From contig CP066694.1 in the NCBI GenBank assembly GCA_016432545.1, forward strand, positions 434,001 to 498,000: 64,000 nt of DNA, given 5' to 3'. Source of the DNA: an archaeon (GTDB lineage: Archaea; Thermoproteota; Nitrososphaeria; Nitrososphaerales; Gagatemarchaeaceae). This document shows, piece by piece, positions 41,094 through 53,130 of the stretch. Made by a program: the position numbers and the translations under genes. The notes under the pieces are model-generated. The model made no database searches and was not told the origin of the DNA. It saw only the letters and a list, made by a program, of their open reading frames with translations. Within the stretch, counting starts at the first letter, position 1. Each line of letters begins with the position of its first letter.

Positions 41094-41126
41094 GTGGCCG
41101 CCGAGGTCCACGGTATTTAGGGATGC

Positions 41127-41134
41127 CTTTGCTC
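41127..41134. repeat. Left target-site duplication of element 1 (CTTTGCTC)
   Basis: CTTTGCTC immediately outside the left inverted repeat; an identical copy lies at 43600-43607. An 8-bp duplication is the length produced by IS6/IS26-family transposases. Confidence 0.9.
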
Positions 41135-41162
41135 GGTTCTGGGTAGTAGTCCTCGGTTGCTC
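41135..41162. repeat. Left terminal inverted repeat of element 1
   Basis: Starts GGTTCTGGG and ends GTTGCTC. The complement of the right end (43575-43599) starts GGTTCTGGG and ends GTTGCTC. The middle differs by a few bases and by 3 nt in length. The GGnnCTG start recalls IS26 ends (GGCACTGTTGCAAA). Confidence 0.85.
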
Positions 41163-41238
41163 GACAAAAATCGTCTCGGTGTGTAATGTCGGTTGCTGGC
41201 GATATGTCTATTTCATTCCCTTTGGTCGGGATGGAAAG

Positions 41239-41976
41239 TTGAGAGGGCCAAGAATCGTCGGAGTCGTGGTCATCCTCTGCCTGCTCACCATCGCGAATCT
41301 TCCCCAGACTGTGAACGGCCAAACTACCCCTTGGATTGACAAGAATGCGGCTACAGAGTATGCGACCAATCTCATCGATAACCTCAACACTCTTGTTGTT
41401 GAGAAATACGGGCAGTATCCCAACTCGACCGTAGCAAAAGCGTTTCCCCTCTTCCACGAATCCCACGATTCCTTCAACGTGACTGTGGTAAGGTGGAGTC
41501 TGATTCACCCTGACCTTGCGACTTTTCTCTTCACCCACATCGCTTCCGATACACCGCAGGTCTACATCAAAAACACCACTTTCCTCGACATGCTCCTCCC
41601 AGGAAAAGGGGCAAACTCGACATTCGTCGTTAACTGCCCAACTTGCCAGTATGGGTTCGATTCTTACTTCAGCAAGGATGACTTCCGCTCCAAGGTCACT
41701 TTCATCCCACTCGTCTGGGTTGCCTACACTTCCTCTGGCGAGATGAATAATCCATTGGAGGTCTCTGCCTCGGTCGCCCACTTCCTCTTCGACAAAGAAC
41801 AGACAGCCCTGTTGAACACGACCTCGACCGCTCAAAGAGGCCCTTCTGACATCTTTACCCCACTGAATGACCTCGTGACCATCATAGTCCTCGTTACTGT
41901 CATCGGGGGGGCTATCGGGGCGTATCGAAACAAGAGCGTGAGACAGAAGGTCGAGAAGTGGTGGCATGGCGGTTAG
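41239..41976 (+). CDS. Element 1 cargo: secreted or C-terminally anchored protein, unknown function
   Basis: 245 residues from TTG 41239; the open frame extends upstream into ilvE and the inverted repeat, which is not plausible. Signal peptide RGPRIVGVVVILCLLTIANL...VNGQ, then an extracellular region rich in N-x-S/T sequons with a CPTC motif (VVNCPTCQYGFDSYF), then a C-terminal helix (LNDLVTIIVLVTVIGGAIGAY) and basic tail. So an outside-facing, membrane-anchored protein. No relation to the cargo of element 2. Function not recognised. Confidence 0.65.
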   Translation: MRGPRIVGVVVILCLLTIANLPQTVNGQTTPWIDKNAATEYATNLIDNLNTLVVEKYGQYPNSTVAKAFPLFHESHDSFNVTVVRWSLIHPDLATFLFTHIASDTPQVYIKNTTFLDMLLPGKGANSTFVVNCPTCQYGFDSYFSKDDFRSKVTFIPLVWVAYTSSGEMNNPLEVSASVAHFLFDKEQTALLNTTSTAQRGPSDIFTPLNDLVTIIVLVTVIGGAIGAYRNKSVRQKVEKWWHGG

Positions 41977-42063
41977 GGCGACCTCAACAGAATCAGCATG
42001 ACCACCGCTAACACTAAGACTACCAATAGAGTGGTTCGGAGGACCAGTCGCTCTTCCTTCAGT
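41973..42063 (-). other. Short open frame with coiled coil and C-terminal membrane helix after the RHH gene
   Basis: In the frame ending at 41973, the codons after the RHH stop read ELKEERLVLRTTLLVVLVLAVVMLILLRSP: a charged helix then a hydrophobic helix. The frame is open back to ATG 42248, but over 42064-42223 it shadows the RHH gene. Possible expression from CTG 42063, which overlaps the RHH stop (CTGA), is inference. Element 2 has no counterpart. Confidence 0.3.
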
Positions 42064-42223
42064 TCCCTGATTTCGTCCTGAAGTATTCGCTCACGATTAT
42101 CCTGACCACTTCGGGAACCGTCGCTATCCTCCTGACCTTCCGCTCCTCCTCCAGCCCTTTCATCATCTCGTGGGTCATGGCGACGGTTATCTTCGGGGTC
42201 GCTTGCTTGGGCGTTCCTATCAC
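42059..42223 (-). CDS. Ribbon-helix-helix (CopG/Arc-like) protein of element 1
   Basis: 54 residues, GTG 42223. KITVAMTHEMMKGLEEERKVRRIATVPEVVRIIVSEYF: a beta strand (KITVAM) then two helices, as in CopG/Arc repressors. It is confirmed by the element 2 homologue, which shares TVAMT, the E-x-R-K-x-R-R core, and P-E-x-x-R-x-I-V-S-E. A TATA box ATTATAAG on the minus strand (42256-42263) puts the transcript start about 10 nt before the GTG. Probably an autorepressor of the divergent promoters; target is inference. Confidence 0.7.
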   Translation of the reverse strand: MIGTPKQATPKITVAMTHEMMKGLEEERKVRRIATVPEVVRIIVSEYFRTKSGN

Positions 42224-42304
42224 CTCCTATGCGGGCATTAGGTGGCATAGGAAGGCTTATAATGGTATTGGTGGTATAGGACGGTGTTAGGTGGCATAAG
42301 ATGG
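42216..42304. promoter_or_regulatory. Operator region with three GGTGGYATARG iterons between RHH and microprotein genes
   Basis: Direct copies at 42241-42251 (GGTGGCATAGG), 42270-42280 (GGTGGTATAGG) and 42290-42300 (GGTGGCATAAG). The flanking 18-bp repeat TTAGGTGGCATA(G/A)GA(A/T)GG lies at 42238-42255 and 42287-42304. Inverted CCTATGC at 42226-42232. The first copy lies between the RHH TATA box and start; the second holds the TATA of the microprotein transcript; the third abuts its ATG. Fits autorepression of both promoters. Confidence 0.6.
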
Positions 42305-42408
42305 CAAGCCTCGAACAAATGCGGGAAGAAATGGGAGCGGACGAATTTGCCGAGTTTCTTGAGGCAGAGGAGTCCCGAAGGGAACTGATGTCGGAGTCGT
42401 GGGACTGA
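42301..42408 (+). CDS. 35-residue microprotein preceding the transposase (element 1)
   Basis: ATG 42301 to TGA 42408, one nucleotide before the transposase ATG. Highly acidic helix with an EQMREEMGADEFAEFLEAEE core. Element 2 has a 29-residue homologue at the same place (EQARLEMDSDDFEAWAQFQE), with conserved E-Q, R-x-E-M, D-x-F, E-S-x-R-E. Conservation of frame and position supports translation. Possibly a transposition regulator or translational coupler; unknown. Confidence 0.6.
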   Translation: MASLEQMREEMGADEFAEFLEAEESRRELMSESWD

Positions 42409-42409
42409 G

Positions 42410-43576
42410 ATGAGCGACCCCCACGACCAGAACAGGATAAGCGAAGAGAGGCGAGACCGTGGCCTCCTAATCGCCCGAGCAGAGGGCCAAGTCCGAAGAA
42501 TCTGGGACGGGCTTTACTTCGTCCGGTCGCAATCAGGTCAAGGGGAGTATCAGGTCTCGCAGAAGGGCGGGAGGTGGGTCTGCTCATGCCCCGACTTCGC
42601 CAACCGATACACGCGCTGTAAGCACATCTGGGCCGTTGAGATTAGCATGAGGATACGAAAAACGGTGGACGGGCAGAGGACAATCGCCGAGGTATCGGTC
42701 TCCGAGTGTTTCTTCTGCCACTCGCAGACTCTCAAAAAGTCTGGAATCCGAAGGAACAGGAGCGGGGACATCCAGAGGTTCGCGTGCCTCGTCTGTCACC
42801 GAACCTTCTCGGTGAATGTGGGCTTTGAACGCATGAAACACAATCCGAAGGCGATAACGATGGCCCTCCAACTCTACTTTAGCGGGGAAAGCCTTCGAAA
42901 TACTCAGAAGGCCCTCAGACTCCTCGGCGTGGAAATCACGCACAAGACAGTCCTGAATTGGATTCGGAAGTATGTGGCCCTGATGGGAAGGTATCTCGAC
43001 CAGATTACGCCTGATGTGGGAGAGAAGTGGAGAGCGGATGAGGTCTATGTCAAGTTCCGAGGCGATATGAAATACCTCTACGCGATGATGGACGACGAGA
43101 CCCGCTTCTGGATAGCGCAACAGGTCGCGGACACGAAATACACGGCAGACATCAGGCCCCTCTTCGCTCAAGCCAAGGAGCGAGCGGGGAAGGTTCCCCT
43201 CGTCCTGATAACGGATGGAGGCCGACACTTCAACAAGCCGTTCAAGCGGGAGTTTCAGTCCACCGACCGCTACTCCCAGCACGTCGCGGACATCACCCTC
43301 AGAGGCAAAGTCCACAACAACAAGATGGAGAGGATGAACGGTGAGGTTCGAGACCGAGAAAAGACCATGCGGGGCCTCAAGAGGACGGACACTCCGATAC
43401 TCAAGGGCCTCCAAATCTACCACAACTTCGTAAGACCCCACGAGTCCTTGAACGGAGAGACTCCTGCCGACCGAGCGGGAATCAGAGTCGAAGGGAGAGA
43501 TAAGTTCCTGACCCTGATTCAGAACGCGAGCAGGGCCAGAGCAACCGAGATTACACAGAAGCAGGGGACACTTTGA
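42410..43576 (+). CDS. IS6/IS26-like DDE transposase with N-terminal SWIM and zinc-ribbon domains
   Basis: 388 residues. SWIM zinc finger C58-x-C60-x9-C70-x-H72; zinc ribbon C100-x2-C103...C126-x2-C129; HTH (SLRNTQKALRLLGVEITHKTVLNWIRKY, 161-188); DDE core D210 (KWRADEVYVK), D269 (LITDGG), E306 in NNKMERMNGEVRDREK, then YHNFVRPHESLNG. The catalytic core and the NN-x2-E spacing match IS26-family enzymes, which normally lack a SWIM domain. The stop lies in the right inverted repeat. Frame intact. Confidence 0.9.
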   Translation: MSDPHDQNRISEERRDRGLLIARAEGQVRRIWDGLYFVRSQSGQGEYQVSQKGGRWVCSCPDFANRYTRCKHIWAVEISMRIRKTVDGQRTIAEVSVSECFFCHSQTLKKSGIRRNRSGDIQRFACLVCHRTFSVNVGFERMKHNPKAITMALQLYFSGESLRNTQKALRLLGVEITHKTVLNWIRKYVALMGRYLDQITPDVGEKWRADEVYVKFRGDMKYLYAMMDDETRFWIAQQVADTKYTADIRPLFAQAKERAGKVPLVLITDGGRHFNKPFKREFQSTDRYSQHVADITLRGKVHNNKMERMNGEVRDREKTMRGLKRTDTPILKGLQIYHNFVRPHESLNGETPADRAGIRVEGRDKFLTLIQNASRARATEITQKQGTL

Positions 43577-43599
43577 GCAACAGTCAATTTCCCAGAACC
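43575..43599. repeat. Right terminal inverted repeat of element 1
   Basis: GAGCAACAGTCAATTTCCCAGAACC; its complement starts GGTTCTGGG and ends GTTGCTC like the left end. The transposase stop codon overlaps its first bases. Confidence 0.85.
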
Positions 43600-43607
43600 C
43601 TTTGCTC
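43600..43607. repeat. Right target-site duplication of element 1 (CTTTGCTC)
   Basis: Perfect copy of the 8 bases at 41127-41134. Confidence 0.9.
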
Positions 43608-50680: not shown

Positions 50681-50688
50681 GGCACCGA
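50681..50688. repeat. Left target-site duplication of element 2 (GGCACCGA)
   Basis: GGCACCGA directly outside the left inverted repeat; the same eight bases follow the right end at 53123-53130. Confidence 0.9.
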
Positions 50689-50714
50689 GGAACTGTTAAC
50701 CCTCCAAGAGATGG
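50689..50714. repeat. Left terminal inverted repeat of element 2
   Basis: GGAACTGTTAACCCTCCAAG then AGATGG; the complement of the right end (53097-53122) is GGTTCTGGTAACTCTTCTGG then AGATGG: 20 of 26 bases match by eye. Start resembles IS26 (GGCACTGTTGCAAA). Confidence 0.8.
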
Positions 50715-50749
50715 GAAATCCGACTTCTCTCATCTCCAGCCAGTTAACG
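50693..50749. repeat. Subterminal hairpin repeats at the left end of element 2
   Basis: CTGTTAACCCTCCAAGAGAT... (50693-50713) and an inverted second copy CATCTCCAGCCAGTTAACG (50731-50749). The right end also has two copies: CATCTCCAGACAGTTAACAG (53058-53077) and the terminal one. Four copies of the unit, two per end, could be transposase-binding sites. Confidence 0.55.
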
Positions 50750-50827
50750 CTCGTTGGGAAAGTGTCGGCTGAGTGTTCTCCCCACCCTACGCAGGGTTAA
50801 GTAACCAAGAGGGGAATCCCCTTCGTC

Positions 50828-51603
50828 TTGAAAGTCCCTACGCTTCCCGATTGGGTCTTTTTGGGTTCGCTCGTAGTTGGCCCCGTGATACTGACGGTAG
50901 AGTTCGCTTTGCTCTACAAACTGAATCTCGCGGATTCGCTACTGACGATTCTGATTCTCGCAACGGTGTTTACAGGAGCCTCATCTTTTTTATTGACTGG
51001 CTCCATCGGCCGAAGCTGGAATATGTTGACAACTTTACCGGCGAAGTAGAAGTTACCTTCAAAGTAGGAAAAGAAAAGGTCAAGAAGAAAGTCTGGATGA
51101 TGTTCGTGCGCATAGGCAACGGAGGCACGACCCCTGCGCAACAACCGAGGCTTTTGTTCCAACTTTGGAAGAAAGATGAACCCAAGGACAAGTGGAGGCC
51201 TGTCTTCGTCCTTCACAGGGAACTCGGCGATGCGGAGGCCATCCCCATACAGACCTTCGAAGAAGACAGGATGGAAGGCCAATTAGCACTAACTCTCTGT
51301 CGAAGGGGGCTGAGGCCAATCGATAGCATCGAACCAAGGGCGGGTGATAAATTCGTCTTCGGGTTTGCGTTCGAAGACGGCAAGAATTTCTATCTTGCGA
51401 TTGACCATTCCCCAATACCGATTCCGCTCGGAGCAGGGTCGCGCATCGTCAAACTCTCGGCGCGTTCAATCAACCGCTTTCAGAGCCCGTATTACGAGGA
51501 GGAGTTCCTTCTATGGGTAGGCAAGTGGAACGATGTTTCATTGACGAGAATTGAAGGGGACACTATGAAGTTCTTGAAAGGTTTTGTGGAACGAGACTCA
51601 TGA
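50828..51603 (+). CDS. Element 2 cargo: membrane protein read across a -1 frameshift (or broken gene)
   Basis: TTG 50828 opens a frame with two membrane helices (DWVFLGSLVVGPVILTVEFALLYKL, LTILILATVFTGASSF), about 25 nt after TTAAGTAA. It runs into an early stop at 51047-51049. The -1 frame continues from 50992 (IDWLHRPKLEYVDNFTGEVEVTF) to 51603. The switch point is T TTT TTA (50986-50992), positioned exactly as a -1 slippery heptamer in the first frame. Fused product: about 258 residues, two helices and a cytoplasmic beta-rich domain. Function unknown. Confidence 0.6.
50986..50992 (+). promoter_or_regulatory. Slippery heptamer T TTT TTA in the cargo gene
   Basis: Zero-frame codons TTT-TTA preceded by T fit X XXY YYZ for -1 frameshifting. 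It lies where the N-terminal and C-terminal frames must join. A downstream stimulatory structure cannot be judged by eye. Confidence 0.5.
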
Positions 51604-51738
51604 CTTCGCCAGCGCCTCGCTTACGATCGTGCGGATTGTCTCTGGAATCGAATCAAAAGCGCGTCTCTTGCGCTCGGCCTCCAGCCTCCGCTCCAATTCC
51701 TCAGTCATGGCTACTGTGTATTTCTTCATCATCGGCAT
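51598..51738 (-). CDS. Ribbon-helix-helix protein of element 2
   Basis: 46 residues, ATG 51738, about 23 nt after a minus-strand TTAAATAC box. YTVAMTEELERRLEAERKRR then FDSIPETIRTIVSEALAKS: beta strand and two helices of the CopG/Arc type, homologous to the RHH of element 1. Its stop overlaps the cargo stop by 6 nt (convergent). Likely autorepressor of the element's promoters. Confidence 0.75.
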   Translation of the reverse strand: MPMMKKYTVAMTEELERRLEAERKRRAFDSIPETIRTIVSEALAKS

Positions 51739-51755
51739 TCTCCCCGTCCGCTTTC

Positions 51756-51824
51756 GTATTTAACCATACGCCCATAGACGGCTATGGGGGTAAGGGTTAT
51801 ATGGCTGGCGATAGACACCTATGG
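51756..51824. promoter_or_regulatory. Operator and divergent promoters between RHH and microprotein genes of element 2
   Basis: Perfect 7-bp inverted repeat CCCATAG-ACGG-CTATGGG (51771-51788) with a further CCTATGG at 51818-51824. Flanked by GTATTTAA (minus TATA for the RHH, about 51756-51763) and TTATAT (51798-51803, + TATA for the microprotein 28 nt downstream). The CTATGG half-site resembles the CCTATGC/GCATAGG motif of element 1. Confidence 0.55.
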
Positions 51825-51828
51825 AAGC

Positions 51829-51918
51829 ATGACTACCGAACAAGCGCGACTCGAAATGGACTCGGACGACTTCGAGGCGTGGGCGCAATTCCAAGAGAGC
51901 AAGAGGGAGCAGGCTTAG
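51829..51918 (+). CDS. 29-residue microprotein preceding the transposase (element 2)
   Basis: ATG 51829 to TAG 51918, 2 nt before the transposase ATG; leaderless from a TATA box 28 nt upstream. Acidic helix MTTEQARLEMDSDDFEAWAQ. Homologous to the 35-residue protein at 42301-42408. Role unknown. Confidence 0.6.
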   Translation: MTTEQARLEMDSDDFEAWAQFQESKREQA

Positions 51919-51920
51919 AC

Positions 51921-53056
51921 ATGGCCTCTCCCGTTTTTGATTATCGAAAGGCAAGGGGCGAGGCAATCGCCAAGGTCGAGACCAATGTAAGGCGCATAGA
52001 CCAGAGCGAGTATCGCGTGAGGTCTCAGTCGGGCCAAGGGGAATACGCCGTCCTCTCGACCGAGGCGGGCTGGAATTGCTCCTGCCCCGACTTCGCCTTC
52101 CGAGGTCTGAAGTGCAAACACGCCTTCGCGGTAGAACTCTCTCTAAAGATTCGTCAGAGAATAGAGAACGCGAGGCGTCTCGTGCCTCTCGACTTCCAAT
52201 CGTGCCTCTACTGCGGGTCTGAGCAACTCGTGAAGGACGGCCTCCTTCACAACAAGGGAGGGGATATCCAGAGGATATCATGCAAGATTTGCGGTAAGAG
52301 GTTCACCCGAAACATCGGGTTCGAGCGAATGAAGGCAAGCCCAGAGGCGATTACGCAAGCCATGCAACTCTACTTCTCGGGCGTGAGCCTGAGAGGGACT
52401 CAGAGGGCCTTGGCCCTCCAAGGAGTGAGGGTCTCTCATGTCGCGGTTTACAAGTGGATTCGCAAGTATGTCCGAATCATGCACAAGTATCTCCAAACCG
52501 TTAGGCCGAATGTCTCGGACACATGGAGGGCCGACGAGTTGTGGGTGAAGGTCAAGGGCGACATGAAGTATCTTTTCGCCGTCATGGACGACGAGACCCG
52601 ATTCTGGATAGCCCAAGAGGTCGCGGACACGAAGGACAAGTATGACGCTACGAGCCTGTTCTTCAAGGCCAACATAGAAGCGGGGAAAGTTCCAGCGACG
52701 CTGATAACCGACGGCCTCTACACTTACCGAACCGCGTTCAAGAGACAGATAGCGGGGAGGAGGCACGATGTAGCCCAAGTCCACATCAGGGAGATAGCGA
52801 TCGCGGGCAAGGTTCACAATAACAAGATGGAGAGGATGAACGGAGAAGTCCGCGACAGAGAGAAGGTCATGCGGGGCCTCAAGAAGAAGGACACGCCGAT
52901 AGTCGAGGGCCTCCGCATCTACCACAACTTCATCCGACCGCACGAGGCCTCAACGGAGACACGCCAGCCGACCGCGCGGGAATCAAGGTCGAAGGCCCTA
53001 ACAAATGGCTTACCCTGATACAGAACGCCAAGCACAAGGAGACATGGGAGTCATGA
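51921..53056 (+). pseudogene. IS6/IS26-like SWIM-DDE transposase, one-base frameshift near the C-terminus
   Basis: ATG 51921. SWIM C53, C55, C65, H67; zinc ribbon C95, C98, C121, C124; DDE residues D205, D264, E304, all present. After residue 342 (YHNFIRPHE) the frame changes: compared with element 1 a single G is missing at 52945-52948, giving a shifted tail to 53018. The other frame reads GLNGDTPADRAGIKVEGPN... to a TGA at 53054-53056, matching element 1. Core intact, so activity may persist. Confidence 0.85.
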
Positions 53057-53096
53057 GCATCTCCAGACAGTTAACAGGAAGAACTCCCCCGCAAGG

Positions 53097-53122
53097 CCAT
53101 CTCCAGAAGAGTTACCAGAACC
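53097..53122. repeat. Right terminal inverted repeat of element 2
   Basis: CCATCTCCAGAAGAGTTACC then AGAACC, the inverted partner of 50689-50714. Confidence 0.8.
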
Positions 53123-53130
53123 GGCACCGA
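53123..53130. repeat. Right target-site duplication of element 2 (GGCACCGA)
   Basis: Perfect copy of the 8 bases at 50681-50688. Confidence 0.9.

Follow-up and report, generated by a model that had tools for sequence, protein, structure and literature searches.

What kind of element does a transposase gene belong to when it joins a SWIM zinc finger to an IS6-type catalytic core, and where do such elements insert? The window analysed here, a stretch of 64,000 nucleotides from a 1.5-Mb archaeal chromosome, encodes a 388-aa protein that the earlier note had read as an IS26-like DDE transposase behind a SWIM finger and a zinc ribbon. We find that this gene belongs to a complete mobile element, one of ~70 related archaeal elements. 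The earlier note saw the gene only and missed the ends, the target duplication, the passengers, the promoter-proximal insertion and a second copy in the same window.

A SWIM finger and a zinc ribbon precede the transposase core

42410..43576, + strand: transposase gene, SWIM - ribbon - HTH - DDE, 388 aa (Pfam, ligands read directly, 16-row alignment, AlphaFold2)
42548..42643, + strand: SWIM finger, aa 47-78 (Pfam)
42707..42796, + strand: zinc ribbon, aa 100-129 (NCBIfam search, 16-row alignment, residues read directly)
43025..43423, + strand: IS240-type DDE domain, aa 206-338 (Pfam)

The proposed combination of SWIM finger, zinc ribbon, HTH and IS6-type core in one chain holds. In the 388-aa protein, Pfam places a SWIM domain (PF04434) at residues 47-78 with 22.3 bits, above the cut-off of 19.6, and DDE_Tnp_IS240 in the same chain with an E value of 1.3e-14. 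Residues read directly give C58, C60, C70 and H72 as SWIM ligands, C100, C103, C126 and C129 as ribbon ligands, and D210, D269 and E307 as the catalytic triad; the two aspartates are those named earlier, but the glutamate is residue 307 rather than 306. In a 16-row alignment of relatives the SWIM ligands, C100, C103, C126 and the triad are invariant, as is R314, the K/R seven residues past the glutamate, while C129 varies; the HTH lies upstream of the triad. DDE_Tnp_IS240 matches 16/16 of these relatives, and SWIM 13/16 at E<=0.01. The CxC...CxH motif is present in ~75 chains from dozens of genomes and in nearly all family chains that reach the N-terminus; the two domains share a chain across many genomes. 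The occurrence of SWIM finger, ribbon and IS6-type core in one chain across the relatives is far beyond chance.

Structure prediction agrees with this architecture. AlphaFold2 with a 50-row alignment yields a pLDDT of 90.9 and a pTM of 0.82, with SWIM, ribbon, HTH and RNaseH-like fold as separate parts; the model from the 16-row alignment is poor (pLDDT 61.6). In a PDB comparison the core resembles retroviral integrases, ISCth4, Mu and TnsB, and a sequence search of solved structures returned nothing useful for the transposase. SWIM fingers are also known in the DDE transposases of the MULE/MuDR and FAR1 types, which are eukaryotic and carry the finger C-terminal to a Mutator-type core, whereas here it is N-terminal.

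We also observed an N-terminal SWIM finger on an unrelated core (Pfam DDE_Tnp_1, E values of 8e-9 to 5e-13) in Chloroflexi, Woesearchaeota and Thermoplasmata, at loci L053:3001-3990, L055:3001-3990, L061:950-1939 and L064:3001-3990. In prokaryotic transposases, SWIM appears to be a portable module.

The transposase gene is part of a passenger-carrying element

41135..43599, + strand: element 1, complete transposon, 2,465 bp, ends GGTTCTGGG / CCCAGAACC (ends, duplication, empty sites)
41127..41134, no strand: left target duplication of element 1, CTTTGCTC, 8 bp
43600..43607, no strand: right target duplication of element 1, CTTTGCTC, 8 bp, perfect
41114..41121, - strand: TATA box CCTAAATA belonging to the neighbouring aminotransferase gene and lying 5 bp beyond the duplication
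41180..41197, + strand: left subterminal repeat TGTGTAATGTCGGTTGCT of element 1, matching the right arm at 17/18 positions
43540..43557, - strand: right subterminal repeat TGTGTAATCTCGGTTGCT of element 1
41179..41976, + strand: passenger gene of element 1 (265 aa, start uncertain), with two membrane segments and of no known family
41973..42587, - strand: possible second passenger ORF of element 1, C-terminal coiled coil and membrane anchor
42301..42408, + strand: 35-aa acidic ORF, possible leader, stopping 1 bp ahead of the transposase start
50689..53122, + strand: element 2, 2,434 bp, duplication GGCACCGA at 50681-50688 and 53123-53130
50773..51603, + strand: element 2 passenger gene for a 276-aa protein of no known family, with a relative in the L029 element (42%)
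51921..53018, + strand: element 2 transposase with SWIM finger, sharing 55% identity with the element 1 enzyme; its C-terminus is out of frame

When inverted repeats were sought near the transposase ORF by ungapped comparison, no relative gave any; the ends were missed there because the cargo pushes them further out. Composition marks two low-GC blocks in the window, at 41.15-43.6 kb and 50.7-53.15 kb, and their edges are the transposon ends. The empty site of element 1 is seen in ~20 genomes of the same genus, in which the joined flanks run uninterrupted (~800 bp, 71-76% identity), and the joined flanks of element 2 are likewise uninterrupted in several of these genomes. We considered a composite transposon formed by both window copies and rejected it, since each has its own duplication and their transposases are only 55% identical.

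The possible second passenger ORF of element 1 has a relative in locus L015 (35%); its true start probably lies further in, as the annotated ORF overlaps the transposase start. In element 2 the C-terminal 34 residues of the transposase find their match in a different frame (window 52943-53044), and this copy is probably damaged by a frameshift. Micro-ORFs like the one at 42301..42408 lie upstream of the transposase in 7 other loci. An acidic micro-ORF of ~30 aa (MTTEQARxEMDADEFAEFL...) stands directly 5' of the transposase in eight high-GC elements (window 42301-42408 and 51829-51918, plus others), and could possibly be a leader or regulator.

Two simpler accounts of the gene have to be set against these observations. 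One holds that it is an ordinary short IS6 insertion sequence with extra zinc fingers, its neighbours being host genes rather than cargo. IS6 is indeed the best profile, and earlier surveys know only IS-like elements of one or two genes in these archaea. However, inverted repeats close to the ORF were not found, ends with perfect duplications enclose neighbouring genes in ~70 elements, and the joined flanks are contiguous in sister genomes. We consider this account very improbable in general, and for element 1 it is refuted because of the empty sites. The other, a domesticated transposase kept as a host gene, would fit a single-copy gene that is strongly diverged from its counterparts elsewhere in the genome (30-62% identity), yet the ends and duplication are intact, all catalytic residues are present, the element is absent in sister species and conserved synteny across species was not seen; we give it less credence still.

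A family of archaeal elements with IS6-type ends

Elements of this kind are numerous. We identified 39 complete elements with ends and a perfect 8-bp duplication (17 in the first loci and 22 in further genomes) and later 31 more, a few of which overlap or are near copies. Shifting the compared positions by 1-13 bp gave duplication matches in only 7/623 cases. The elements are 1.9-6.8 kb long, and their hosts are Nitrososphaeria and Bathyarchaeia. Some are damaged, by the frameshift in element 2 and by stops in several relatives.

The terminal inverted repeats span ~14-24 bp and start with GGTTCTG. Across 34 ends the consensus start is GGTTCTG(T/G), with GG in 34/34, T6 in 34/34 and G7 in 33/34, so that the GG start, the G at position 7 and the 8-bp duplication (8/8 duplications) are those of IS6-type elements; the ends resemble the IS6 consensus GGTTCTGTTGCAAA (PMC6807381). 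Additionally, at many ends a word particular to the element, such as CGGTTGAT or CGTCGGAT, recurs ~27, 36 or 48 bp inward, and end-by-end shuffling finds these inner direct repeats at p<0.05 in 15/34 ends. The outer repeat and the element-specific inner repeat are suggestive of a bipartite putative binding site.

The host genome of the window, whose genus also contains records named 'Thaumarchaeota archaeon', has three close SWIM transposases, 54-62% identical among themselves, together with one distant SWIM transposase (~30%) and one ribbon-only transposase. A free-standing 82-aa SWIM protein lies upstream of the distant SWIM transposase and overlaps it (L011:1148-1396 and 1336-2745; ~1,310 kb in the same genome). 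By profile search, the family occurs in 49/398 genomes of the phylum (E<=1e-30), in 17/257 genomes of the class to which the Bathyarchaeota record L021 belongs (E<=1e-100) and in 55/250 genomes of the family that holds Nitrosotalea devanaterra (E<=1e-100). Named records with the family include Bathyarchaeota, Nitrosotalea, Nitrosocosmicus, Gagatemarchaeum, Methanoperedens and Sifarchaeum. The transposase is also encoded on four contigs recorded as viral, of which two contain complete elements; among plasmids, the search hits were limited to ordinary IS6 (21-29% identity) and one Geobacillus DDE protein that SWIM does not match.

Insertion at a fixed distance from promoters

Alignment of the empty sites revealed a TATA-like box adjoining the duplication. 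The best TATA box lies 3-10 bp out in 30/39 elements, against 12.7% in the control, with a matrix chosen after seeing the sites. The motif YTTAWAWA (<=1 mismatch) starts at exactly +5 in 19/39, where 0.6 would be expected from intergenic positions. In a pre-specified test on 31 unused elements, 18/31 had it at exactly +5, against an expectation of 0.29, and the next best offset had 2; about half of the sites are thus without a TATA box at exactly +5. At element 1, the box CCTAAATA is 28 bp ahead of the in-frame ATG of the aminotransferase gene. Base preferences beyond the motif resemble a BRE, with A at +1 in 25/38 and A at +3 in 32/38, and 25/30 sites have an outward ORF beginning on the TATA side, compared with 7/30 on the other side. 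The outward gene start falls most often 31 bp after the start of the TATA box, and a TATA-to-start spacing of ~31 bp is that expected for leaderless archaeal genes. The BRE-like motif and the gene start ~31 bp on indicate that the TATA-side sites are real promoters. The orientation of the element is free (17 versus 16), and the duplicated bases themselves hold little information.

Insertions also accumulate at these points. In 10/39 elements the duplication is directly adjoined by an end of a further element, which happens at none of the random sites. L112 has two elements back to back and one duplication in triplicate, and elements are stacked in the same way in L252 and in L232 (the contig of L016). 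Such stacking is what repeated insertion at one fixed promoter-side point would give. At L107, L109, L110, L112 and L115, from several genomes, the target promoters are of a single type, CTTATAAAGTACTnGTACCGTACCATACGGTATGG, in which a palindrome follows the TATA box.

The short archaeal IS6 elements that lack SWIM (~667-711 bp; L190-L209 and L222) offer a comparison. In 16 copies from two genomes of the same order, a TATA-like box lies at 8-13 bp in 11/16, an interval chosen after seeing the data, against 12.7% in the control, and never at 3-7 bp. Since these elements too lie near TATA-like boxes, target choice need not depend on SWIM. A preference for promoters may have preceded the SWIM group, with the spacing differing between the two, and promoter-proximal insertion may be general in archaeal IS6.

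A promoter-sparing transposon and its possible mechanism

Taken together, the ends, duplication, cargo, empty sites, promoter register and stacking, all read in the DNA, point to the transposase of a passenger-carrying, promoter-sparing DNA transposon of an IS6-related archaeal group, a reading that we hold with considerable confidence and in which the roles of SWIM and of TBP/TFB are inferred. In the mechanism that we envisage, the DDE core would cut and join the ends, as in other DDE enzymes, and the SWIM finger, ribbon and HTH would read the bipartite ends. The TBP/TFB-promoter complex would guide the transposase to its target, in much the way that Pol III factors guide Ty3 in yeast. In the sequences themselves, the duplication of about half of the elements stops exactly 5 bp short of a host promoter's TATA box, so that the element lies immediately upstream of the BRE and the promoter stays whole, and new copies can insert again at the same promoter and build up stacks.

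The TATA register could also arise from a preference of the transposase itself for DNA sequence or bendability, with no part for TBP/TFB, in what would still be a real transposon. That the register can be seen in the sequence alone is compatible with such a preference, while the BRE-like columns and the well-placed outward gene starts point to the use of whole promoters, and the bases of the duplication carry little information; we regard a preference of this kind as a possible but less probable source of the register. Targeting through TBP/TFB would make the elements a distinct, unnamed archaeal group of unit transposons, one that disseminates genes for defence and other functions and takes promoter-bound TBP/TFB as its landing mark, a counterpart of Ty3 built on a DDE DNA transposase; the chances of this fuller picture appear to us about evenly balanced. 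With archaeal TBP and TFB, the fixed register allows a direct in vitro test of a targeting mechanism, and it could yield a site-directed insertion tool for archaea. The Ty3 and Ty1 elements of yeast insert at a fixed position just upstream of the core promoter and spare the gene; they are retroelements acting at Pol III promoters, whereas the elements described here are DNA transposons at archaeal promoters, where any protein contact is putative.

Relation to IS6 and other transposons

The label 'IS26-like' given by the earlier note was right as to the wider family and too narrow as to the group. The best family is NCBIfam transpos_IS6 (7e-33), with IS1 (1e-12), IS481 (3e-11) and IS3 far behind, but the 388-aa protein scores 114 bits, below the NF033587 (IS6) cut-off of 125, while ribbon-only relatives reach 148. 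In a tree built without IS26 itself and without clostridial sequences, whose deep branches are weak to moderate, the SWIM group and its ribbon-only relatives form their own branch (88/93), apart from IS1216, IS257, ISRle7 and the IS6 of halophiles. The core is related to IS6, and in the tree it stands apart from the bacterial IS26 group. In the view of Harmer and Hall, the IS26 family should not take in archaeal IS6; Varani and colleagues retain a single family and report clostridial members with zinc-finger extensions.

With IS6/IS26 (IS26, IS257, IS1216) and the short archaeal IS6, the elements share the IS240-type DDE core, the HTH, the K/R seven past the glutamate (R314), ends that begin with GG and have G at position 7, and the 8-bp duplication. 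They differ in the length of the transposase (388 aa with SWIM and ribbon, compared with ~210-250 aa), and in their passengers, their size of 1.9-6.8 kb, their separate branch and their +5 promoter register. Clostridial IS6 of clades h/i (VII/VIII) also have an N-terminal CxxC ribbon before the HTH, but these are bacterial, and SWIM is not described there (PMC6807381, PMC7986276). For the ribbon-only IS6 elements, ends were not found within the stretches fetched. A single member of the IS6 family with a passenger gene, ISDsp3, is named in PMC7986276. The casposons of Thaumarchaeota occur in the same archaea and are likewise multi-gene elements with inverted repeats and target duplications (PMC6563490), but they use a Cas1 integrase and PolB, whereas these much smaller elements use an IS240-type DDE recombinase. 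Like unit transposons of the Tn3 and Tn7 types, they hold a transposase and passengers between one pair of ends; unlike these, they have an IS6-type core, and among the ~40/136 cargo proteins scanned there is no recombinase, resolvase or Tns accessory protein.

Passenger genes

Passenger DNA flanks the transposase, on one side or on both, in nearly all elements, and comprises one to several genes; type II and type IIG restriction systems are among them. The cargo identified includes:

L027: Tsp45I restriction enzyme and its methylase
L025: methylase fused to an Mrr domain
The window's own genome and L008: AbiV
L037: GmrSD/HNH nuclease
L102: fused methylase-specificity protein
L112, 6344-10916: type IIG enzyme with specificity subunit
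L127: methylase and specificity subunit
L125: PIN and GIY-YIG
L104: NYN
L101: HicA, weak match
L020, L028, L031, L104: MazE/AbrB-like proteins
L110, L112: proteasome-like proteins
L116: response regulator

A clear restriction, methylase or abortive-infection gene is found in at least 7/39 elements, a lower bound as the scan covered ~40/136 cargo ORFs. Most of the other scanned cargo, including both window passengers, belongs to no family. A 2019 survey of Thaumarchaeota reported IS-like transposons of 1-2 genes and no passenger-carrying transposons detected in archaea (PMC6563490), compared with the ~70 described here. The full-text literature searched, which leaves out most subscription journals and ISfinder, holds no report of a SWIM-IS6 fusion, an archaeal cargo transposon or a TATA-targeted archaeal insertion. 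The elements are a vehicle that moves restriction and abortive-infection genes among ammonia-oxidising archaea, Bathyarchaeia and their kin, and the many cargo genes without a family are candidates for new functions, defence among them.

Two recurring clusters of cargo proteins of 60-90 aa are common to otherwise different elements, one in L020, L028, L031 and L104 and the other in L025, L108, L122 and L124; one of the two is MazE/AbrB-like. It is possible that these small proteins form an addiction or regulatory module of the transposon.
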